22,006 nt of DNA from a virus: the IMG/VR virus record IMGVR_UViG_3300042876_000446, positions 1-22,006 of that record; one strand, 5' to 3'. This document shows, in pieces, positions 1-19,394 of this stretch. The position numbers and the translations under genes were made by a program. How positions within the stretch are numbered: the first letter of the stretch is position 1; every line of letters begins with the position of its first letter. Under the pieces are notes generated by a model. It did no database searches. It worked only from the letters and a program-made list of their open reading frames with translations, and was not told the DNA's origin.

Positions 1-190
1 GCCCATCGTCCAATGTGACACGAAAAAGCGTGTCCACCCCTTTTTTGAACGGCACTTCCGCCAACCGCGGGACAAACCCGGTTTCTGTCAGCGCCAACAC
101 GGCATGCCGTTGTCCTCGCCTCATCAGTTCTTCAATCGGCGTCTGCTCTCCGGTGATGGGGTTGTAGATGCGCGTTCCTTTGGCAACACA
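1..190 (-). other. Intein N-terminal half inside the helicase P-loop (partial)
   Basis: Just after the extein sequence RRGYFIGDG (ends at 191) the giant protein turns into a Hint/intein start. Cys at 190-188 (residue about 3243) opens CVAKGTRI, a typical intein block A. It is followed by an acidic PIEEL stretch and by VTLDDG running into the window edge, which fits the approach to block B. Strawberry-notch-like helicases normally read GDGTGxGKG here, so the element sits between the Gly and the Thr of the Walker A motif, with Thr expected as the first C-extein residue. P-loops of ATPases are favoured intein sites. The rest of the intein, any homing endonuclease and the C-terminal splice junction lie left of position 1. 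Confidence 0.85.
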
Positions 191-3100
191 CCCATCACCG
201 ATGAAGTAGCCGCGGCGCTCTCCGCTCGGAAGAATCTGCTCATGCGCCTGCCCGGCATAAACGATGTTCTCCAGCGCCGTGAGGCTCAACCGCCCCTCGC
301 TGATAACTTCCTCGGGAAGATTCGGAGTGTAGGACGGGTCAGGCGGCAGCACGCTCGCCATGGCGGCACTCTCCACCAATTTAGCCGGGTGCGATTGCGC
401 CCCAGGAACCCGGACCTTGGCCGGCTCATACTCGGCAAAAATGTCGTCCTCGTTGACGATTTCGCGGCGCTCGGCCGCGGAAGCCCCCTCTACGCTGATG
501 CCGGTCTTACCAGCCGCGCCGCCGCTTCTTCCTCCCGATACAGGGCGCTGTCCGGGTTGCCCTTGCCCCCCTCCATCACCACTTGCAGCACCATTTCCCC
601 GGCTTCCGCCAGTGTCGGCGCTTCCGCCAGTTCCGCCGGCGTCAGATTGTCCGCCAGAATCGCTAGAAGCGCCTCCGGGTTGCTTTCCAGCCAATCCAGG
701 CGAACGGCCTCCGCGGCGTCCTCCGCCGCGTCTCGGTCTGCGAGTGCCGCCCACGCCAGTTGACACACCGGCATTTTGTCCGGTGCCCCCGGAGCCGCCT
801 TGAACTTCTGCAACACCGCTTCCGCCGCCTGATTCAGCGGGTGCGCCCTCGGTTGCGGGCTTTGTGGCGTTCGGTCGGTCATTTCTTACTCCCTCTAAGA
901 CAATACCGGCCCGAACCAAATCGTCAACCTCTCCCGTCACAGCCTGCTCGATTCCCGCCCCGGCCGGCGGCGCCACCTTGTCAATCACCAGAAGCCGGTT
1001 GCTGAAAGTCGTCCCATACTTGGCGTAATTCTTCCCGTCCAGCCACACATTTGCCCGCACATGGTATTTCTTGGCCACGCTGCGCCACCACTGGCGGAAC
1101 GTGGGAGCATTGAAGTCCATGCCTTCGCCCACGATGGCCACAAGGCGCCCGCCGGGCTCCAGGCTCGCCAGCGCCGCCAAGACGTGCTCGGCGCCGATCT
1201 TCGTATCTCCGCGCTTCCCGCTCTTGGCCGCGTTGCTGAACGGAGGATTCAACACCGTAACAGTCGGCCGCCGCAACTCCCCGCCACGCCACCGCGGGCC
1301 GAGGATGTTGTTCAACTTCTCGGCGTTCTCGCCAAAGAGGTAGTCAAACCCCATCTGCTTCAAGAACTCGCGCCGCCGCGGGGAAAGCTCGTTGGCAATC
1401 ACCGTTGCCCCCGCGTTCTTGGCAAACACAGCCAGGCCACCAATGCCGGCACTCGGTTCGAGCACCACATCGCCCGGTTGGATGTTCGCCACCCAATTCG
1501 CCAAGAAAGCCAGCGGCGGCGGCGTGCTGAACTGCTGCATGTCCACCGCTTCCTGTGTGCGCTTGCTCTGTGTCGGCAGTTTGGAAATCAACTCCTCCAA
1601 GCTGCGCAACCTGCGCTCAAACAAGTCGAAGCTGCTTGTTTGCGGAGAGACACCGGCCTTGGCCAAGTGCTGATTGACCGCCAGTTCCATGGCGTCGTAG
1701 GCGTCCTTGACGGTGTAGGTGCCATCCGCCTGCGTGCCGCCCCACGCCTCATCGGTGATGCGGAATAACTCGCGCCAATCGAAGGAGCGCCCTTCCTGAA
1801 TGAGCGCCTTGATGTCGTCGGCCGCTCGCTGCTGCGGCGTGTCCGCTTTCTCAGCGGTTGGCTTGTCCACATGCGTTGCCGCATTGTGTCCGCCCTCTGT
1901 GCTCGGAAGCTCCGCAATGGCTGCCAGGGCTTCGCGCACGGGCACACTGAGGCGCATGATGTCCACATCCCGGCCGGCGCCGTCCATGGCCAGCCATTGA
2001 TGGTGCCCGTCCAGAAGATAGCCGTCCGCGCTGACAAGAATCTTGCGCTGCGTGCCCTCCATGAGCGTGGTCGCCTTCTTGACCTTGGCCGGACTGTATT
2101 CGGCCTGCGTGGGCTTGAGCGTGTCCGGCGCCACCGTCTCGTTGCTGACGGTGATGCCCTTGGATTCGAGGAAGTTGACCAGCGCCCCGCGGGATTCGGC
2201 CGGAACCTGCGGCATGTCCTTCCGCGGAACGCCCAGCGTGCCGGACGACTCGGGGAAGTTCTCCCAGCCTTTTGCGGCGGGCGCTTCCTCTTTTGCGGGC
2301 GCCTCCGGCTTTTCCACCGGCGCGGTCGCCCCCGCATAGACCTCCGACCATTTCACTTGCTGGTCAGGGTCGCTGTTGCTGCCGTTGGCCCACACCTGAG
2401 AAAGCGTCTTCGGGATGATCCGTCCGGGGAACCGTTCCACCAGCGTCCGCGCCAAAGCTTCCGGCGTGTTCACCCCGCGACTCCAAAGCCCGTCAGCCAG
2501 CCGAGACATGGCCGCAATTGCCTCGGGCGTGGCCGCAACGGCAGCAATCGGGGCCGGCGCCGAGGCTGCCGCTACACCCTCCACCACGCGCACGGGAATC
2601 TTCGTCCACCCGGCCAGCATCGCCGCTTGTGCCGTGGCGTTGCCGTCAATAATCGTGAACGTGCCGTCTCCGTTGGCCGAAACATCCAGCGGCGCCCGCT
2701 TCTTGCCGGTCGGGTCGCCCTCGATGTTCTTCAGCATGCCCTTGATGGCCGTTTGCCGCGGGTCGGGCTTCAACCCGGCCAAGAACCTTGCATCCTGCAA
2801 CTCGTTCTTGCGGCTGATGAGGCTCGAAAGCGGCACCACGCGCACCCGGCCGTCCACCAAATCCCACTTGTCATAGGCAAACGCCTCTTTGATGGCATCC
2901 GGGTATTGCGCCAGCCGGCTTGCGTCCACATCGCCCGCGTAGTCGAAAATGTTGTTTTCCGAAATAATCGGTTGGCGGTCGGACCCCTCGGCGGTAGTGT
3001 CTTCTTGTATGGGTAACGACGAAACGAACGCGAAAGCCCTCTCGGTGGCGGATGCCGAGTTGCCCGATCCCTTGGAACTGCCCAAGGATGTTGATGATAT

Positions 3101-6100
3101 GTCCTCGGAAGACTGGACGGTGCTCAATGGGCTGATCCGCAAGTTTGCGGCTGCATCCGAATCTGCGGCGTAGGCTTCGCCAGATAGTTTGACGATTTGC
3201 CGCTCTGCTTTGCGGCGCGTCTTGTCCAAGGAAGACGCAGTAACCGGCGTTAGCCCCTCTTGATTCAGCCGCTTCTTGGCCTCGCGCCAAATGTCATACC
3301 ACTTGTGAATCGCTTTTTTGGCCCGAAGCATGGCCGGCTGAATAATCAGCACTTCCTTGACTACCGGATCAAGCCCTTCGCCATCTTTGACGAATTTCAA
3401 GTTGATGTCCTTGTAGCCAGGACCAACCTCGGCGTGCCTGTCGTAAATATCTGCCACGCCGCCCGGCGAATAGACCGTGTAACCTTTGGCTTCCATCGCC
3501 CCGATAAACCGCGCTGCCACCTGTCGCGCCGGCCCCGGCCCGCCCGCCGGAGCCTCCACCGTGGCCCGCAACAAGTCGCTTGGAATCTTGGGCGAGCGGT
3601 CAATTTTCGACACGGCCGTTCCCAGCTTCTTGACCGCGTTCCTGAACTGCTCCCGATACGGCCGGCCGCCTGCCTGACGTGCCGCATCCACCAAGTCGGC
3701 AAGAAATCCGTCGCGCTGTTTTAGCGCCTCGCCGTGAATGGCGCGCACCGCGTTCTTCAACTGTCCGCGCTGCGCCATGGGCACCGGAGCCGCGCCAGCC
3801 GGAGGCAAGAACTTCTCGAACTCCGCGAACAACGCCTCAAGTTCGGCGTCTGAGTCGGGTGCCGGAGCGTCAATGCTTTCGGCAACGGCCGGCTGCTGCG
3901 CCTCCGCGCCCCCCTGCGGCGCGTTTTCGGTGGCTTCCGCTGTCTCGACACCCGCGGGCTCCGCTGGCTTCCCTGCGGCCTCCAGGCGCGCAACCTCGGC
4001 CTCGATAGCCGCCGCCACGCCCTCGAACTCCGCCCGCTTCTCCGCGTCCAGCGTTCCAAGAAGCTCGTCGCGCAACCACCGCGCCACGTCCCGAAGCACG
4101 TCCGCAATCCGCGCCGCCAGCCCCGGATTGCTCGCCGCCACCGCGTCCACGGTCTGCGCCATGCCCACTTGCTCGTTGGTCGCGCCGTCCAGCTTCGCGG
4201 ACAGATACATGCGCCAGAACTCCATGCCGAGAACCGCGTCCGGCATGGTCGCCGCCGCCGCTTTCCAGTCGCCCCCGTTCTTGGTCAACTCCGCGGCGTG
4301 GTAGGCCATGACCACTTGCCGTTGCGCCTCCTCGGGCAATGCCTTCCAGTCGGTCGCCAGTTCTTCCGCCGACCGCACGTTGGCCGTGGCCCCGTGCAAG
4401 ACCTCCTCGCGCCATGTCGCCCGAATCTTGGCCTCGCGTTCCGCCGGTTCCAGGCCGGCCAAGTTCTGCGCCAGTGTCGCCCGGTCCACATAGACCGTGC
4501 CGCGGAAATACACCATACCGCCGCTCGGCATCGGACTGAACCCCTTGCGCTCGGCCGCCGGCATCCCCTGCAACTCCTGCGCCGTCACAACCCGCGTCCA
4601 ATCGGCGTTCACATGCAGACGATCCGTGGCCACCACCTTCAACGGCAGCTTCCCACTAAACGCCTCGGGAACCGCCGCGCCAAACATGCGCACCGCGGTA
4701 TTGCCGTTCACGGGCTCGGAGAAGACGGAACCGGACTTGGGCGCCGCGGGCTGCCAGTTTGCCGGAGATTCTTCCGGCGCTTTTTCCAGCGTGCTGGCCA
4801 GCATGTCATGCTGCACGCCATCCGGCGTTTGAACCACGGCCATTGCCCCTCCGTTGGTAAATCCAACAACGCGGCCAACCTGCGCCGGCCGCACGGTGCC
4901 CACACCGGGAACTTGCACCAAGTCGCCCTGCCGCACGTCCGGCCTTGCGGGCTTCGCCGCCGCCTTCTTGGCCTTGGGCGCCGCCTTCGGCTTCTTGGCT
5001 TTCGGCGCGGGTTTGGCTGCGGGTGTCTGCGCCGGCGCCAAATACGCATCCAAGGCCGGAATTGCCCCGGTTTCCCCAAGCTCTCGCGCCACCTGATACA
5101 CCCGCGCCATATTCACGAAAACGTCTCCGCCTTCCTCGCCACGCGCCACAAGGTCAGTCAGCGCCATGAACCGCGAAGCGCGTTCCTCGGCGTCCATTTC
5201 GCGGACCTCATCCATCGAAAGCACCGTCAGACGGCCTTTGCCGTCTTTCGCTCCGGTCGCCTGCTCGTCGTCGCGCAAGCTGCGGCCGGCGAACTTCCCA
5301 AAGTCGGCGGGCTTCGGCGCCTCCGCTTCTACCAATTTGCTACCAGTTTCCTGCTGATTGGTAGTTGCGGGCGCCTCGACCGGTGCCACCTGTCCGCCTT
5401 CCGCCGTTTCCTGAACAGGTTCTGGCGTCGTGTTGACCGCTTCGACAGGTTGCGCGACTCCCGGATCAACCGACAAGGATTCCTCGACGGTTCCCTCCGG
5501 CGCTTGGATCTCCTCAATGACAACCTCGCCGTCCGCCCCGCGCTGCAAAGACTTCACCCGCGCCCCGAAAAGCCTCTCCGCCGCCTCCCGGCTCGATGCC
5601 TGCCCGCTCTGCGTCACCGTCACCGGGCGCTTGCTGCCCTTCGGCGTGAAAACCATGCGCGCCCGCCACGTCCCAGGCCCGCCGGCCGCCGCGCCCCCCT
5701 GAACCGGCGTCACCGGCCCGCCGCCCTTCACCGGAGCCGCCGCCGGACCTTCCTCGCCGCCCTGCTGGCCCGCCTGCGGAGTCACCGGAGGCGCCACCAC
5801 CGGCGGAGTAACCGCCTGCTGAGTCTGCGGCGCGGCCTGCTGCACCACCGGAACCGGCTGCCCCTTCTCCTCCGCGGGCTTCTTCCCCTTCGCCGGAGCA
5901 ACCGGAGCCTGCGCTTGCTGCTGCTGCGGAGCCTGCCCCGGAACCACCGGAGGCGCCACAATCATGCTCTCCGCCTCCGCCTCGGCCAACTGATCCGCCT
6001 CGGTCTTCCCGAAATACACCTTCGCCGTTTCCGGCGCCACGCTTGCCACGGCTTTTCTGAACGAATCCGGCACGATGATCCGATTCCCGCGCACATACGC

Positions 6101-9100
6101 CCCCACGTTCAAAAGCGCCTGCTCCTGCGTCGGCGTCAGAGGCGTCAGGCTCACCATGCGAATGGCCGCGTCAATCGCCTCACGATCCGACTCCGCCACC
6201 CCACCCAACTCGTTCACCGCACGCCGCGCACCTTCCCCAATGCCCGCCATGTCGGCCAGGATGCTCGCATATTCGACCATCAACGCCTGCCGCTGCCCAG
6301 CCGCCGCCGAAATCTCAGGATTGACCACCTGTTGCGCCGGCCCGTTCCCCACCGTCTGCCACACCACCGGCGGCAACGTCTTCAGCTTCCGCGCCAACTC
6401 CGCGTCTTTCTCGACCACCGCCGCCAGCCGCCCCTTCAAATCCGCCACCGTCTGCGGATTCTGATACTCCTGCATGGTCTTGGCCTGCTCGTAGGTAATC
6501 GGCTCCTCGGGATAGCGCGTGTTGTGGTCCTCGACCCACTGTTTCAGCGCCTTCTCCTGCGCCCGCCGCATCTTTCCGATGTCGTATTGCGCCGCCGCCC
6601 AGCCGACCGCCGCATGCGGCCCGGCCATGCCCACGCCCCCGATGAACCCGGACAACCCCTGCGCCACCGCATCCCCCAGAGTCGCCCCACTCTGACCGAA
6701 AGCCGCAACCATTTCCTCAAACATCTCGCCGCCGCCGCTCGCCCACCCCTGCTTGGCAAGATCCACCGCCACGTTGCGCGCCTGCTGCCCGACCGTCAGT
6801 GTCCCGCCAATCGGCCGCTCGACCTTCCCCAGCTTGAAAAACTTCTCCGCCAGCCCGTCCAGCCGCGAAATCTCCCGCCCCGCACGGTTCAACGTCAGCC
6901 CCAGACGCTCCGCACTCCCCATCCATTTGCCCAAGGTCAGCAACTTGCCCGCACCAACGCCCGCCAACTGACTCGCCAGCTCAATCCCCATCTCCTGCAC
7001 CGGTGCCACCTGTCCGCCGTAAAATGCCTGCTGCAACGGCCCGAAGAATGACGACTCCGCAATTTTGCCGTTCTGCGAGGCATATTCCATCGCCTTGTGC
7101 TGAATCTCCAAATCGAACTGGCTGTTGAGCGCCGCCGCCTCAAACGCCGCCCAATAACTCGGGCTCAACGTCTGCTGATACGCCGCCAACGCCTGCCCCA
7201 TCTTGCTCCGCGGGTTGAGCAAGTCGTTCTCCCAAGTAAACCGCCCGCCGCCGCCCAAGGCATGGTAGTTGTCCAGCGCCGTCTTGATCCGCCCCGCCGC
7301 CGCCCGCAACTCAGGCTCGGTCATGCGCCCGCTATGCAACCCATCCTTGAACGCCGAAAGCTCTTTCTTGAGCGCGCTCCCCGTCTCCCCACTCCACATC
7401 TTGTCCCGCACCCCGCCCAAATTCCACAGATAGCTCGACGGCAACGCCATCAGCAACGCCTCGCCCACACTGTCAGGCATCCGGTCTTTCAGCGCCCGAT
7501 TGAAATTGTTCTGCCAGGCAATCGTCTGCGCCCCGATCAGCTCGCGCTCCGCATCACTCAGAAGTGGGCTGAACCCATACTTCTGCGCGATGTCGTCACC
7601 CAGCAACTTCACCGCCCCCACCCCCACACCCACCGAGGAACCATAGGCGTTCTGCAACGTGCTGTTCAGCCAGTTCTTGGCCCGCCCCACCAAGCTCTCG
7701 TCCGCCAGCAACTTGTCCCGCGCCGCAATGAACGCCGGCAAGTTGAAATCCACCTTCCGTTGCGCCTCCTGCGCATACTCGGCCATGAACGCCTCTCGCG
7801 CCGCGTAGTCGTTCACCGCCGCCACCCTCTCATGCTCGGACGCACCCAGCCCGGCAATCGCCTTCTCCAGCCCCGCCGGCAACACCGCCGCCGCCACGTT
7901 CATCAAGCCCCGCTTCCATGGGCTCATCTCAGGGTTGGCCGCCTGCGCCTTCCGATACGCCTCCGCCGCGTCACTCGTCCCGTTCTTCGCCCAATAGTTG
8001 AACGAGTCCTCCAGTGACGCAAACTCCGGCTTCGTCCCCCTCGCAATCTTGGCAAACATCCTCGCGTCCTGCGCGCTCAACTGACCGGTCTTGTGTAGCC
8101 AGTTCGTGTCCAACTCCCTCTGCGACGCATCAACCCCAGCCTGCCGCGGGTCAATCTGCGCAATGATGGCCGCCCTCTCGCTGTCCGTCGCCGCCTGCCA
8201 CTGATCCATCACGTCCCGCAACCGCTCCGCACCCCAGCGCCGCCCCGCCCATGCGTTCTCAGCCTCTTTCGCCCAGTCCTTCGCGTCCAACTCCTTGCGA
8301 ACCTCGGGCACCAACGGCGTGCTCCCGTAGGCCGACTTCTTGAACGCCTCCGCGAAATCCGCCGGCATCCCCACATACTCCGGCATCCCACGGTAATAGT
8401 TCCCCGCCGCAAAGCTCGGAGAATGCTGCCCCAGCGGATCCAACTCCAAATACCCCACCCCGTATTGGTCGAACTTGAACCGCCCAACAGGCTCGTCCAC
8501 CGTCTTCTTGCTCCACGGTAGCGGCACCCCCCAAAACTTCGATGATGTCTCCTTCGGCGCGTAGAGAACGCCCCCCTCCAACTTGTAGCCAGGCGGCGCC
8601 TGAATGTCCGTCTGCCCCGCCAACTTCGCGTTCAACTGCCGCTCCATCGCCTCCGGCGTGAACCACTCCGGCGGCGCGTGCGTGTAGCCCGTCGCCTTGC
8701 GCACTTCAGGCGGCAACGCAATCGGCGCCTCCGCAGACAGCTTGGCCGAAGCCGCCTGCTCCCGCCCGCGCATCCTCGCCGCCGTCCACTGATTGACACT
8801 CCCCCGCGTGGACATCGCATCCACAGACGCATCAAGCCCCTCCTCAATCGCCCGCCCCACCGCCGCGTCCTTGGCCTGAAACTCGTTCCAAAGCGTCTCC
8901 ATCAAGTCCGGTGGCGCCGGCTGAATCGGGCTGCTCGCCGGCTCAATCCCCGCCAGCGTCAACGCCATCTCCGAAATGTAGCCGCTCACCGCCGCCGTCC
9001 TCTCCGCCAACCGCCCCGTGTTCGGCAACGTCTCCGCCTCTTGGTAGATCAACTTCGCCTTGTCCGCCACGCTCTCCTTCAAAATGCTGTCCCGCCACGC

Positions 9101-9916
9101 CATCTGATTCCTCACATCAGACTTCGCCCGGTATGCCTCCAACTCCACTTGCGCCTGCCTCTCGACCTTCGCCTTCAACCCCCCCTCCAACTGCGCCTTC
9201 TCCTGCTCCAACGCCTCCCGCGCCGCCCCATCAACCGTGATGTCCTCCAACTTCCGGTCAATGTCCGCAATCCGCCCCCGGTCACTCGCAATGTCCCGCC
9301 CCAGCAAGCTCAACTCGCCCGTGGCCGCCGCCGCCTCCTCTTTCAACACCCGCGTCCGCTCCGCCAAGTTTGCCTTCAACTTCGCGTCCGGCTTCAGCTT
9401 CGCGTCAGGGTCGTAGCCCATCCACTTCCACGCCATGCCAGGCACCACCTTGTAAACGTGCCCATCCTTCTTGACCGTCTCCCCCGTCTCCTCAGGATCC
9501 TGCTCGATCAGCTTCCCATTGTCGTCCCGCACATACGCCTTGCCCGTCACCGGATCAAACATGGTCCCCGACTTGCCCCACTTGCGCATCGGCGCCCCAC
9601 TCGGCGCCGTAATCGGAACCACCGTGCCATCAGGCCGCGTGTAGAACCCAATCGCGTCCGTCTTGTATTCGCCCGCCTGACGCTTGTTGGCCCGCTCTCG
9701 ATCCCGCTCCAACGCCCTCTGCTCCCTCTCCGCACGCGCCAACGCCCTCTCCTGCTCCTTGGCCGCCTTCCCAGCCACCTTCTCCCCGTCCGCCGTAGGC
9801 ACAAACTCCCCGCGCTGCCAGTCCGCCAACCCCGACCGCATCAAATCCTGCCGCCGCTCGGCCTCATCACGGCCGCGGCTCATCTTCATCAGATCGTCTA
9901 GGGTGCGCGTCGCCAT
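1..9916 (-). CDS. Giant DarB-like polyvalent phage protein (3' end outside window)
   Basis: One uninterrupted reading frame starts at ATG 9916 and runs off the left edge: 3305 complete codons with no stop. I translated it by hand in one phase, and it stays protein-like almost throughout. Domain order: charged coiled-coil N-terminus (about 1-230); long Ala-rich region with Gly-rich hydrophobic stretches (to about 1300); Pro/Gln linker (about 1318-1413); Ala/Lys linker (about 1624-1658); a RelA/SpoT-like segment (about 2133-2216); two ParB-like domains; an N6-adenine methyltransferase; a Gly-rich linker; the start of a strawberry-notch-type helicase split by an intein. Methylase plus helicase in one huge phage protein is the DarB plan of phage P1, whose product travels in the virion and shields injected DNA from restriction. 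The start lies 4 bases after the previous stop; its ribosome binding site is weak. The virion role is inferred. Confidence 0.9.
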   Translation of the reverse strand, partial: MATRTLDDLMKMSRGRDEAERRQDLMRSGLADWQRGEFVPTADGEKVAGKAAKEQERALARAEREQRALERDRERANKRQAGEYKTDAIGFYTRPDGTVVPITAPSGAPMRKWGKSGTMFDPVTGKAYVRDDNGKLIEQDPEETGETVKKDGHVYKVVPGMAWKWMGYDPDAKLKPDAKLKANLAERTRVLKEEAAAATGELSLLGRDIASDRGRIADIDRKLEDITVDGAAREALEQEKAQLEGGLKAKVERQAQVELEAYRAKSDVRNQMAWRDSILKESVADKAKLIYQEAETLPNTGRLAERTAAVSGYISEMALTLAGIEPASSPIQPAPPDLMETLWNEFQAKDAAVGRAIEEGLDASVDAMSTRGSVNQWTAARMRGREQAASAKLSAEAPIALPPEVRKATGYTHAPPEWFTPEAMERQLNAKLAGQTDIQAPPGYKLEGGVLYAPKETSSKFWGVPLPWSKKTVDEPVGRFKFDQYGVGYLELDPLGQHSPSFAAGNYYRGMPEYVGMPADFAEAFKKSAYGSTPLVPEVRKELDAKDWAKEAENAWAGRRWGAERLRDVMDQWQAATDSERAAIIAQIDPRQAGVDASQRELDTNWLHKTGQLSAQDARMFAKIARGTKPEFASLEDSFNYWAKNGTSDAAEAYRKAQAANPEMSPWKRGLMNVAAAVLPAGLEKAIAGLGASEHERVAAVNDYAAREAFMAEYAQEAQRKVDFNLPAFIAARDKLLADESLVGRAKNWLNSTLQNAYGSSVGVGVGAVKLLGDDIAQKYGFSPLLSDAERELIGAQTIAWQNNFNRALKDRMPDSVGEALLMALPSSYLWNLGGVRDKMWSGETGSALKKELSAFKDGLHSGRMTEPELRAAAGRIKTALDNYHALGGGGRFTWENDLLNPRSKMGQALAAYQQTLSPSYWAAFEAAALNSQFDLEIQHKAMEYASQNGKIAESSFFGPLQQAFYGGQVAPVQEMGIELASQLAGVGAGKLLTLGKWMGSAERLGLTLNRAGREISRLDGLAEKFFKLGKVERPIGGTLTVGQQARNVAVDLAKQGWASGGGEMFEEMVAAFGQSGATLGDAVAQGLSGFIGGVGMAGPHAAVGWAAAQYDIGKMRRAQEKALKQWVEDHNTRYPEEPITYEQAKTMQEYQNPQTVADLKGRLAAVVEKDAELARKLKTLPPVVWQTVGNGPAQQVVNPEISAAAGQRQALMVEYASILADMAGIGEGARRAVNELGGVAESDREAIDAAIRMVSLTPLTPTQEQALLNVGAYVRGNRIIVPDSFRKAVASVAPETAKVYFGKTEADQLAEAEAESMIVAPPVVPGQAPQQQQAQAPVAPAKGKKPAEEKGQPVPVVQQAAPQTQQAVTPPVVAPPVTPQAGQQGGEEGPAAAPVKGGGPVTPVQGGAAAGGPGTWRARMVFTPKGSKRPVTVTQSGQASSREAAERLFGARVKSLQRGADGEVVIEEIQAPEGTVEESLSVDPGVAQPVEAVNTTPEPVQETAEGGQVAPVEAPATTNQQETGSKLVEAEAPKPADFGKFAGRSLRDDEQATGAKDGKGRLTVLSMDEVREMDAEERASRFMALTDLVARGEEGGDVFVNMARVYQVARELGETGAIPALDAYLAPAQTPAAKPAPKAKKPKAAPKAKKAAAKPARPDVRQGDLVQVPGVGTVRPAQVGRVVGFTNGGAMAVVQTPDGVQHDMLASTLEKAPEESPANWQPAAPKSGSVFSEPVNGNTAVRMFGAAVPEAFSGKLPLKVVATDRLHVNADWTRVVTAQELQGMPAAERKGFSPMPSGGMVYFRGTVYVDRATLAQNLAGLEPAEREAKIRATWREEVLHGATANVRSAEELATDWKALPEEAQRQVVMAYHAAELTKNGGDWKAAAATMPDAVLGMEFWRMYLSAKLDGATNEQVGMAQTVDAVAASNPGLAARIADVLRDVARWLRDELLGTLDAEKRAEFEGVAAAIEAEVARLEAAGKPAEPAGVETAEATENAPQGGAEAQQPAVAESIDAPAPDSDAELEALFAEFEKFLPPAGAAPVPMAQRGQLKNAVRAIHGEALKQRDGFLADLVDAARQAGGRPYREQFRNAVKKLGTAVSKIDRSPKIPSDLLRATVEAPAGGPGPARQVAARFIGAMEAKGYTVYSPGGVADIYDRHAEVGPGYKDINLKFVKDGEGLDPVVKEVLIIQPAMLRAKKAIHKWYDIWREAKKRLNQEGLTPVTASSLDKTRRKAERQIVKLSGEAYAADSDAAANLRISPLSTVQSSEDISSTSLGSSKGSGNSASATERAFAFVSSLPIQEDTTAEGSDRQPIISENNIFDYAGDVDASRLAQYPDAIKEAFAYDKWDLVDGRVRVVPLSSLISRKNELQDARFLAGLKPDPRQTAIKGMLKNIEGDPTGKKRAPLDVSANGDGTFTIIDGNATAQAAMLAGWTKIPVRVVEGVAAASAPAPIAAVAATPEAIAAMSRLADGLWSRGVNTPEALARTLVERFPGRIIPKTLSQVWANGSNSDPDQQVKWSEVYAGATAPVEKPEAPAKEEAPAAKGWENFPESSGTLGVPRKDMPQVPAESRGALVNFLESKGITVSNETVAPDTLKPTQAEYSPAKVKKATTLMEGTQRKILVSADGYLLDGHHQWLAMDGAGRDVDIMRLSVPVREALAAIAELPSTEGGHNAATHVDKPTAEKADTPQQRAADDIKALIQEGRSFDWRELFRITDEAWGGTQADGTYTVKDAYDAMELAVNQHLAKAGVSPQTSSFDLFERRLRSLEELISKLPTQSKRTQEAVDMQQFSTPPPLAFLANWVANIQPGDVVLEPSAGIGGLAVFAKNAGATVIANELSPRRREFLKQMGFDYLFGENAEKLNNILGPRWRGGELRRPTVTVLNPPFSNAAKSGKRGDTKIGAEHVLAALASLEPGGRLVAIVGEGMDFNAPTFRQWWRSVAKKYHVRANVWLDGKNYAKYGTTFSNRLLVIDKVAPPAGAGIEQAVTGEVDDLVRAGIVLEGVRNDRPNATKPATEGAPAESGGGSGVAEVQGGSGGTGQNAGVSTGVGGTRRPRRGGGRRGGRSPGLAGKQPGGASSDSGGQSDAGGTGGSADTGGSRGNGAASGDGGGQGQPGQRPVSGGRSGGAAGKTGISVEGASAAERREIVNEDDIFAEYEPAKVRVPGAQSHPAKLVESAAMASVLPPDPSYTPNLPEEVISEGRLSLTALENIVYAGQAHEQILPSGERRGYFIGDGCVAKGTRIYNPITGEQTPIEELMRRGQRHAVLALTETGFVPRLAEVPFKKGVDTLFRVTLDDG
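188..480 (-). other. Strawberry-notch-like helicase N-terminus (domain of the giant protein)
   Basis: Residues about 3146-3242 hold the conserved lead-in of Sbno-type superfamily 2 helicases found in phage and plasmid polyvalent proteins: a PHP-like HPAKLVESAAMA segment, PPDPSYTPNLP, then IVYAGQAHEQ and LPSGERRGYFIGDG, which leads into the Walker A loop. The order and spacing match what I know of this family. The ATP-binding Lys, the DEAD-like box and the second RecA domain should follow the intein outside the window. Confidence 0.8.
490..882 (-). CDS. Overprinted 130-residue protein nested in the giant gene
   Basis: A complete ORF of 130 codons starts at ATG 882 and ends in TAG at 490. It lies wholly inside the giant gene but in another frame. 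A clear GGGAG Shine-Dalgarno sequence lies 6 bases before the ATG, one of the best in the window. The product is acidic, Ala/Leu/Glu-rich and predicted helical, with segments such as LDWLESNPEALLAILADNL. Most of its codons end in G or C (GCG, CTG, CCG, GTG), the local habit. The giant frame here reads a Gly/Ser-rich low-complexity linker with much poorer third-position bias, as a shadow frame would. I recognise no family. It could be an anti-defence or virion accessory made by internal initiation. A product of frameshifting from the methylase is the alternative. Confidence 0.55.
   Translation of the reverse strand: MTDRTPQSPQPRAHPLNQAAEAVLQKFKAAPGAPDKMPVCQLAWAALADRDAAEDAAEAVRLDWLESNPEALLAILADNLTPAELAEAPTLAEAGEMVLQVVMEGGKGNPDSALYREEEAAARLVRPASA
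930..1560 (-). other. N6-adenine DNA methyltransferase domain of the giant protein
   Basis: Residues about 2786-2996 carry an amino-methyltransferase: FSTPPPLAFLA (motif X-like lead-in), LEPSAGIGGLA (motif I, S-adenosylmethionine binding, about 2818-2829), an acidic NELS after strand 2, and NPPFS (motif IV, N2890-F2893), the catalytic motif of N6-adenine methylases. A C-terminal GTTFSNRLLVIDK strand completes the fold. In DarB-like proteins this domain precedes the helicase, as here. It may methylate incoming DNA. All core motifs look intact. Confidence 0.85.
1920..2110 (-). other. ParB-like domain 2 of the giant protein
   Basis: Residues about 2603-2666 read KILVSADGYLLDGHHQWLA, with the hallmark DGHH (D2636) of the ParB/sulfiredoxin-like nuclease fold, preceded by the usual strand and followed by a helix and IMRLSVPV. 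ParB-like modules of this kind recur in phage polyvalent proteins and are proposed nucleases or CTPase-type DNA-binding domains. Activity cannot be told from the sequence. Confidence 0.65.
2580..2870 (-). other. ParB-like domain 1 of the giant protein
   Basis: Residues about 2349-2446 look like a second ParB-type unit. VRVVPLSSL begins it, and FTIIDGNATAQAAMLAGW followed by IPVRVV ends it. The usual DGHHR is DGN (D2424), so the first His of the motif is replaced. A tandem arrangement with a canonical copy downstream suggests duplication followed by divergence, or two separate acquisitions. Confidence 0.6.
3009..3173 (+). CDS. Possible antisense small protein (54 residues)
   Basis: On the plus strand, opposite the giant gene, ATG 3009 opens a 54-codon frame ending in TAG. 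A longer version could begin at ATG 2949. The product is acidic and soluble, contains SSEDWTVLNGLIRKF and reads like a real helical protein. The giant frame over the same bases is a Ser/Thr-rich low-complexity linker, as expected if it were the passive partner. I see no Shine-Dalgarno sequence and every other gene runs the other way, so this may be an inverted insert or chance. Confidence 0.2.
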   Translation: MGNDETNAKALSVADAELPDPLELPKDVDDMSSEDWTVLNGLIRKFAAASESAA

Positions 9917-18158: not shown

Positions 18159-19394
18159 CTACTGCAAAAGTTCGGTCAGGAGCACGCGAAAAGCTCGCTC
18201 TGCGGTTGCGGGGACGACTCCGTTTCCGAGCAATCGCAACTCATCGGTGCGATTGTCACAGGAGACGCACAACTCGGCATAGTCCATCCCACGGGCAGGC
18301 CCATGAGGGTTTCGACCCATCGGGGGTTGAGTTTGCCCGCCTGCTGCCTCTCGACCATCGGCGTGAGTTCCTTGTATTCCCGGTCCTGGTTGCCCCTGCC
18401 GCTCTTGTGGTCGCGTGCTGTTGGGGCGCCCCATTGTTCCTCCCTCCACACTTGCGTTGCTATGCTTTCCCCTCCGCGATTGTCGTTCCAATGTTCCCCG
18501 TATTCCGGGTGCATTGATGCCATTGCACTTCGCGGGGTCGCCCAAGCCTTCACCGCACCCGCCAGATACACCCCTTGATTCCCGTTCGGGCCGCTGCTCT
18601 CCATGTCGGGCGTGTGCGCGGTGATTGTGGGCCACAACTCTCGGCGGCTCCCATCCGTGCTGCTGCTCGCCGGGGCGGGCGGGCCATGCTTGACCGCATG
18701 ATGCAGCTTGATCTGCTTCTTGCTCGGATTGTTCGGGTCGCCCGTTGTTGAGCGGCCACCGTTGGGAACATCCGGCGTCGGCCAGCTTGCCATTGCCGCC
18801 ATCGTCCCCAACGGAATCGAATTGCGCTCCAGTTGTGATTTGCCGACCGAGTTCTTTGATTCGTTGACGCTGATCGTGGGCCAAGATGAACACCCGCTTG
18901 CGTTGGTGCGGTGCGCCGACTTCACTCGCGCTGAATATGCCCCACGTCGCTCTGTAACCCATTCCTGCCAAGTCTTGCAGGACGTTGCGAAGGCCGAGGG
19001 TAATGTGTCCTTCAACGTTCTCGAAGAAGCAGAGCCGGGGTCGCATGGCAGCAATTCCGGTTGAAATAGCTGACCAGAGGTGGCGGGGGTCGTCTGCTCC
19101 GAGTCGCTTGCCTGCTGCGCTGAAAGGTTGGCAGGGATAACCGCCAGAGAGGATGTCCACTCGTCCGTGAAACGCTGCGAATGGGAAGGTTCGCAAATCA
19201 GGCCAGAGCGGAGCCGGGTCAAGTTGCCCGCCTTCCATGCGCGCAAGAAGTAGCTCGCACGCGAAGGCTTCGATCTCTGAGTAAGCGACCGTGCGCAAGC
19301 ATGGGATGCATCGGTGCAATCCGAGGTCAATGCCTCCGTATCCGGCACAAAGGCTGACGTGCGTAATTGGGCGGGGAGTATCCACATTGCTCAC
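18159..19394 (-). CDS. C5-cytosine DNA methyltransferase
   Basis: This 411-residue protein carries the ordered C5-methylase motifs: I, SLCAGYGGIDLGL (14-26); IV, GGYPCQPFS with catalytic C88; VI, FFENVEGH (E125); VIII, QRKRVFILAH (164-173); and X, LLGNGVVPATAERAF near the end. Between VIII and X lies a long hydrophilic stretch with few hydrophobic residues (about 180-380), which should be the target-recognition part but is low-complexity. The start is taken as GTG 19394; GTG 19385 is possible. A second open frame, +1 relative to this, covers nearly the whole gene and contains a motif IX-like segment missing here. It probably protects phage DNA from host restriction. No cognate restriction gene is visible. 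Confidence 0.88.
   Translation of the reverse strand: MSNVDTPRPITHVSLCAGYGGIDLGLHRCIPCLRTVAYSEIEAFACELLLARMEGGQLDPAPLWPDLRTFPFAAFHGRVDILSGGYPCQPFSAAGKRLGADDPRHLWSAISTGIAAMRPRLCFFENVEGHITLGLRNVLQDLAGMGYRATWGIFSASEVGAPHQRKRVFILAHDQRQRIKELGRQITTGAQFDSVGDDGGNGKLADAGCSQRWPLNNGRPEQSEQEADQAASCGQAWPARPGEQQHGWEPPRVVAHNHRAHARHGEQRPERESRGVSGGCGEGLGDPAKCNGINAPGIRGTLERQSRRGKHSNASVEGGTMGRPNSTRPQERQGQPGPGIQGTHADGREAAGGQTQPPMGRNPHGPARGMDYAELCVSCDNRTDELRLLGNGVVPATAERAFRVLLTELLQ
18176..19387 (-). CDS. Overlapping second frame of the methyltransferase (403 codons)
   Basis: ATG 19387 opens a 403-codon frame, +1 to the methyltransferase and ending just before its stop. From about residue 169 it reads like a methylase target-recognition region: repeated W(P/A)T units (SSWPTISVNE, ASWPTPDVPN, ELWPTITAH, KAWATPRSAM), then APTARDHKSG and LNPRWVETLMGLPVGWT (18283-18333). 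That last phrase resembles motif IX (LTxREaARLQGFPDxF) of C5 methylases and the end of known phage methylase-related proteins. The first 160 residues are mostly a shadow. Either both frames are expressed, or a frameshift joins the frames, or the conservation simply reflects that of the overlapping gene. Confidence 0.4.
   Translation of the reverse strand: MWILPAQLRTSAFVPDTEALTSDCTDASHACARSLTQRSKPSRASYFLRAWKAGNLTRLRSGLICEPSHSQRFTDEWTSSLAVIPANLSAQQASDSEQTTPATSGQLFQPELLPCDPGSASSRTLKDTLPSAFATSCKTWQEWVTERRGAYSARVKSAHRTNASGCSSWPTISVNESKNSVGKSQLERNSIPLGTMAAMASWPTPDVPNGGRSTTGDPNNPSKKQIKLHHAVKHGPPAPASSSTDGSRRELWPTITAHTPDMESSGPNGNQGVYLAGAVKAWATPRSAMASMHPEYGEHWNDNRGGESIATQVWREEQWGAPTARDHKSGRGNQDREYKELTPMVERQQAGKLNPRWVETLMGLPVGWTMPSCASPVTIAPMSCDCSETESSPQPQSELFACS

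Follow-up and report, generated by a model that had tools for sequence, protein, structure and literature searches.

The window, by which we mean the whole stretch of DNA that was analysed (22,006 nucleotides), ends inside a strawberry-notch helicase gene that is interrupted at its ATP loop by the start of an intein. Complete relatives of this intein encode the Hint splicing domain on the sense strand and, between the two Hint halves, an HNH endonuclease on the opposite strand. We regard it as practically certain that this dual-coded family is real. For the window as a whole, the likely explanation is a mobile P-loop intein in a DarB-like helicase, with its Hint domain read from the sense strand and its HNH gene from the antisense strand.

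The interrupted helicase in the window

The minus strand of the window holds a giant ORF of 3305 amino acids (2..9916), an incomplete frame that continues past the contig edge. The window makes up the complete IMG/VR record G000 (22006 bp), and the contig is not extendable. Residues 3176-3251 of the ORF match the Pfam family AAA_34 (E=8.7e-21) up to the interruption. This N-terminal part of the strawberry-notch helicase domain lies at 191..391 on the minus strand and ends in GDG, directly before motif I (TGxGKG). The end of the ORF, translated from 2..9916(-), reads ...LPSGERRGYFIGDG-CVAKGTRIYNPITGEQTPIEELMRRGQRHAVLALTETGFVPRLAEVPFKKGVDTLFRVTLDDG, where here and below a hyphen within a motif marks the insertion point. 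AAA_34 model positions 2 to ~68 are found in the window before the intein and positions 69-306 are found in the relative L002 after it; behind the insert of L002 the family resumes at model position 69 (E=2.6e-84) and is followed by Helicase_C_4 (E=2e-81). The host protein of the window is a strawberry-notch helicase interrupted at its ATP loop.

Upstream of the helicase, at approximately 1200..1520 on the minus strand, motifs read by eye (VLEPSAGIGG...VTVLNPPF) point to a probable adenine methylase; no methylase family was significant for this region in the Pfam and library searches of the window ORF. By the family context of PMC5512222, the 3305 amino acid ORF is a candidate DarB-like polyvalent virion protein. 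Elsewhere in the window a C5 cytosine methylase (PF00145, E=5.9e-33) shares nearly its whole length with another long frame of that strand (18159-19394(-) and 18176-19387(-)). The latter frame resembles an 'Mte8-like' protein that is annotated as methylase-overlapping in Escherichia phage K1ind2.

The N-terminal 63 residues of the intein are encoded at 2..190 on the minus strand, as 63 codons that begin with Cys1 (codon 190..188) and run up to the contig edge, and the frame has no stop before position 1. The junction reads RRGYFIGDG-CVAKGTRI, with the nucleophile Cys1 and block A present at the N-junction. Blocks B, F and G lie beyond view, because the window is the complete record and ends at the contig edge. 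An earlier sequence-only reading had proposed that an intein is placed precisely within the Walker A loop of the strawberry-notch helicase part of a giant phage protein, and this placement is borne out by the junction, by the AAA_34 match and by the empty and filled relatives described below. That reading had also looked to a search of the 63 residues with intein models. The public models recognise them weakly (TIGR01445 intein_Nterm E=0.026; DnaB-intein model E=0.0016), as does the Mtu RecA intein (phmmer, E=0.015), but a profile made from 26 related inteins, with the window left out, finds them with E=2.3e-17, and the next best of the 472 window ORFs scores E=0.022. The fragment shares 49-50% identity with inteins, either of the same P-loop site or of another; a tblastn search of the junction against annotated phages gave no match. 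We are highly confident that the element is an intein. That the terminal Cys-containing stretch is no intein but an insertion, or an artefact of assembly at the contig edge, would fit the weak scores of the public models and the end of the contig 190 nt into the element, but this is scarcely credible beside the profile match and a junction that is exactly that of four relatives (L002, L005, L029 and L042).

The same site is found both empty and filled. In L003 and L004 (62% identical) the helicase is uninterrupted and reads GERRGYFIGDGTGVGKG, so that the site is GDG-TGVGKG. In L002, L005 and L029 the arrangement is GDG-C...HN-TG(V/L)GK with an insert of 340-347 residues, and the HN-Thr junction followed by TGxGKG that had been predicted for the far side of the intein is present in all three. 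The window's element is an in-frame insertion in a conserved motif that is absent from close homologues (L003, L004 and others). Most strawberry-notch homologues have no intein and its presence is patchy. Block B of the relatives has conserved T69 and H72, and the AlphaFold model of the L002 intein has a Hint fold that matches DnaB inteins in Foldseek.

Two further strawberry-notch loci were observed. A helicase in an IMG isolate-genome provirus (L042:2700-3288) ends at the contig edge inside the same intein, and its intein part has several frame disruptions. L018 (10001 onward) has a different intein in the same P-loop, with a sense-frame LAGLIDADG enzyme (Pfam E=1.7e-7) and apparently Ala1, which is inserted a few residues further on (GDGTGVGKGR-AQPLDA...HN-TSAATI). 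The L018 intein represents a second independent invasion of the strawberry-notch P-loop.

The HNH gene opposite the intein linker of the relatives

The homing enzyme of an intein is usually a domain of the same polypeptide. In the complete inteins of the family described here, Hint halves of ~95 and ~40 residues are separated by a stretch of 150-260 residues that is rich in Ser, Pro, His and Arg. In six-frame translation this linker is the reverse complement of an open frame of 180-310 codons with HTH units and an HNH domain; the antisense HNH protein of L005 is 230 aa long. In 28/28 distinct complete inteins (26 that remained after duplicate removal, L140 and the Pectobacterium phage group) the stretch between the Hint halves has an HNH ORF on the opposite strand, always in one phase, in which antisense codon position 1 is opposite sense codon position 1. 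Loci were found by searching viral contigs with a profile of the intein N-half, and more were then added with the antisense HNH as query. The N-half profile alone found 21 loci, 17 of which have the opposite-strand HNH between the Hint halves. The remaining four comprise L042, which is cut by the contig end, the mini-intein L048, and L040 and L047, which carry sense LAGLIDADG-type enzymes as judged by eye.

The Pfam family HNH_3 is found in 26/26 antisense ORFs, together with HTH families, and the antisense HNH of the relatives matches a PHROG HNH endonuclease (E=1.8e-25). Free-standing homologues of the same HNH exist. In Foldseek the antisense HNH model had no match below E=0.001, and I-HmuI was found with E=0.088 (probability 0.99). 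The sense frames match Intein_splicing (PF14890) in 20/20 cases. We also considered whether the long linker might be an endonuclease of the sense strand, degenerate or novel, and rejected this, since the sense frame gives Intein_splicing alone (one case adds a weak zinc-finger match) and the linker is predicted to be disordered. In the complete relatives an HNH endonuclease is associated with the intein, as the sequence-only reading had thought possible, but it is encoded by a gene of its own on the other strand rather than as an intein domain.

Two pattern scans of 84,980 prokaryote genomes, which were of limited reach, found no intein of the P-loop family; they returned one HNH relative (L136, Nitrospira sp. 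MAG contig VGWY01000134.1, 3172-3417). Within that reach the scans suggest that the intein family is phage-borne.

Selection acts on both strands of the intein linker in the relatives. Differences between antisense ORFs at antisense positions 1, 2 and 3 number 3698, 3154 and 5539, and position 3 is highest in 43/43 pairs, which are not independent. Antisense position 3 is sense position 2, where a change always alters the sense amino acid. The Hint-N halves of the same 43 pairs have their peak at sense position 3 (1287/1101/2261). In cultured Pectobacterium and Dickeya phages a single gene displays the same contrast. Between Setonix and Amona the N-extein differs by 0/0/14 at sense positions 1/2/3, Hint-N by 0/0/5, the antisense ORF by 5/16/7 and the C-extein by 12/4/124. 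All differences between Ymer and Sabo fall within the antisense ORF, where they number 2/10/3 and amount to 13 sense and 5 antisense amino-acid changes.

The sense frame is also kept open. Opposite the HNH genes it has no stop in 5886 codons, compared with 163 and 259 stops in the other two opposite-strand frames, and a synonymous shuffle that keeps the antisense protein gives an expectation of ~152 sense-frame stops. In a control set of 39 HNH relatives with no detected Hint domain, the same frame contains 94 stops in 4011 codons. Shine-Dalgarno sequences of at least 6 nt precede the antisense start in 10/26 cases, compared with 4.25% at random positions (P~5e-8), although a strong one is missing in roughly half of the antisense ORFs. 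In AlphaFold the sense frame has Hint halves with block means mostly >90 and a linker <50, whereas the antisense protein has a mean of 89; in structure the Hint model resembles DnaB inteins (target TM-scores 0.87-0.89).

Long antisense open frames are common in GC-rich genes, and the sense frame is bound to be translated along with the rest of the host protein. The antisense frames of the relatives could then be a by-product of the composition of the sense linker and encode nothing. Such a by-product would not be expected to carry HNH_3 in every antisense ORF, to have free-standing homologues, to fold confidently where the sense linker does not, to be preceded by an excess of Shine-Dalgarno sequences, or to have substitutions concentrated at positions that leave the antisense protein unchanged and invariably alter the sense protein. 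We rejected this possibility on the substitution pattern, the avoidance of stops and the controls, and give it next to no chance of being correct.

Hint and HNH sequence similarity are correlated across the family (Spearman 0.43; 0/2000 permutations as high). The correlation is consistent with long joint inheritance, and together with the fixed phase it suggests that the dual-coded lineage has one origin. The linker shows with unusual clarity how two unrelated proteins can be under selection on both strands of one DNA stretch: a stop in the sense frame would cost the phage an essential enzyme, and the antisense frame must retain a working nuclease. This makes the family a good system for gauging constraint in overlapping genes.

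Host genes, proposed mobility and the window's own intein

All 28 inteins are inserted in P-loops, before (T/S/C)-Gly. The hosts are terminases (GPAG-TGK(T/S)), several of which are named by context with no family match, clamp-loader ATPases (TGxSG-CGKTTL), a RecD-like helicase (GPAG-TGKT), a SNF2-type helicase (FLD-TGLGKS) and strawberry-notch (SBNO) helicases (GDG-TGVGKG). The host of L070 is likewise named by context with no family match. Since these ATPases are unrelated and yet carry the lineage in the same loop, it may have spread through recognition of P-loop codons.

The arrangement is also present in cultured phages. In eight records of Pectobacterium and Dickeya phages the intein contains an unannotated antisense HNH gene; the intein lies within an ORF labelled 'hypothetical protein' or the record is unannotated, and an antisense gene is missing from the annotation wherever annotated regions were inspected. 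In Pectobacterium phage Ymer (OP748252.2; L128:1071-3335(-)) the terminase large subunit has a 288-aa intein with an antisense HNH gene of 232 aa, and seven related phage records share this arrangement. Klebsiella phages have uninterrupted terminases with ~71% identity to that of the Ymer group. The terminase genes of L140 and L141 have C-exteins that are 87% identical and an intein at the same site; in L140 the intein is 398 aa long and has the antisense HNH, whereas in L141 it is 134 aa long and does not. This pair indicates that the antisense gene is a removable module, as expected of a homing gene that comes and goes. L141 either lost the HNH or never had one, and the mini-intein L048 has none. 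In a separate observation, the C-extein of the L051 terminase (770-2836(-)) has a second Hint region (Hint_2 at residues 98-140 and Intein_splicing at 344-371), and this gene seems to hold two inteins.

By homology, we propose that these inteins work as follows. The host gene would be translated with the intein included, which in the strawberry-notch helicase lies between GDG and TGxGKG, and the sense reading of the linker would be an unstructured, stop-free stretch. The Hint halves would fold around this disordered linker and splice, so that the ATP loop is restored; in the strawberry-notch helicase GDG would be joined to TGVGKG. The HTH-HTH-HNH gene would be transcribed and translated separately from the opposite strand; its HTH units may bind the P-loop DNA and its HNH domain may cut or nick alleles that lack the intein, after which repair would copy the intein into the cut allele. 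Compared with a fused enzyme, an endonuclease encoded in antisense need not fold inside the precursor and could be made at another time.

The unspliced helicase is presumed to be inactive, because its P-loop is split by the intein, and this is a reasonable inference. The sequence-only reading had gone further and suggested that conditions or timing control splicing and hence the helicase. The split ATP loop is in keeping with such a switch, and P-loop inteins have been proposed as environmental sensors (PMC5050341). The terminase inteins tested in the same study spliced quickly (PMC5050341), however, and patchy presence together with an endonuclease gene is what a selfish element predicts. We consider a regulatory role improbable and favour a mobile intein.

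The window's own intein quite probably has the antisense HNH gene, to judge by its relatives. This is a prediction, because the window ends before the gene region: it holds intein nucleotides 1-190, and the antisense ORF of the same-site relatives ends at intein nucleotides 196-223, so that the window stops 6-33 nt short of the end of the gene in those relatives. If the gene is carried, its last codons would have their place at 1..18 on the plus strand, where the conserved phase reads AHRPM-stop; this reading is compatible with the gene and is no evidence of it. The window's element could instead be a mini-intein or have an endonuclease fused in the sense frame. The linker region is outside the window, the family includes the mini-inteins L048 and L141, and sense LAGLIDADG enzymes are found in L040, L047 and, at a different point of the strawberry-notch P-loop, L018. 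An intein of this ordinary kind is nevertheless rather unlikely, as all three complete inteins at the exact site (L002, L005 and L029) carry the antisense HNH gene, and so do the 17 of 21 loci found with the N-half profile alone.

For the window we therefore favour the dual-coded intein. It is fairly likely that this intein belongs to an old dual-coded lineage, in which an independent HNH enzyme encoded in a fixed phase would target P-loop codons, and its expression would be decoupled from that of the host protein and might be under antisense regulation against it. A lineage with its homing enzyme on the opposite strand would be another route to intein mobility, and it may explain phage inteins that have a long featureless linker and seemingly no endonuclease. 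Cultured phages (Ymer, Setonix and their relatives) make the antisense-HNH intein testable now, and L140 and L141 provide a natural comparison with and without the endonuclease.

Comparison with known systems

In 2009 Dassa et al. reportedly described 'fractured genes', which are split inteins with a free-standing endonuclease gene between their halves. There too the endonuclease gene is separate from the splicing domain and lies between the Hint halves. The inteins described here are continuous, and their sense frame crosses the endonuclease gene. In the open-licence PMC literature we found no account of an intein whose endonuclease is encoded in antisense, and one may exist elsewhere.

DarB-like polyvalent methylase-helicase proteins of phages, including strawberry-notch types, have been surveyed (PMC5512222). 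The window host resembles them in being a giant phage protein with a strawberry-notch SF2 helicase and a probable adenine methylase upstream; the survey makes no mention of inteins (PMC5512222).

P-loop inteins are known in phage terminases, namely TerL1-a and TerL1-b of mycobacteriophages (PMC5050341). They share with the present family the Hint domain, the insertion into the Walker A motif of a phage ATPase and the association with a homing endonuclease. In TerL1-a/b the intein polypeptide itself includes the endonuclease, as a sense-frame domain, whereas here the enzyme has its own gene on the opposite strand. A further difference is the insertion point, which is before (T/S/C)-Gly-Lys in this family and between Lys and Thr in TerL1-a/b (PMC5050341).

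The ShiLan domain, described in 2025, is a same-strand hidden HNH in an insertion of a phage methylase that has no splicing domain (PMC11855218). It is similar to the present family in that a stop-free insertion in the host frame hides an HNH in another frame, and in being phage-borne and patchy. The ShiLan HNH is frame-shifted on the same strand, whereas the relatives described here combine an antisense HNH with a true Hint intein; a same-strand, out-of-frame HNH with no splicing domain is not what they contain (PMC11855218). An arrangement that is ShiLan-like but antisense was observed in L101:1547-3850(-), where a DNA methylase (N6_N4_Mtase, E=1e-28) is broken by two stop-free insertions that are the reverse complements of two different HNH genes, the plus-strand ORFs 2116-2595 and 2806-3405. 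A Hint domain was not seen in this methylase gene.

Antisense homing endonuclease genes are known in nuclear group I introns (PMC9548176). These genes likewise sit within a self-splicing element and are read from the strand that faces the host gene (PMC9548176). An RNA intron is free of any need for a sense frame, whereas an intein must keep its frame open, and dual coding is therefore forced upon the inteins described here.
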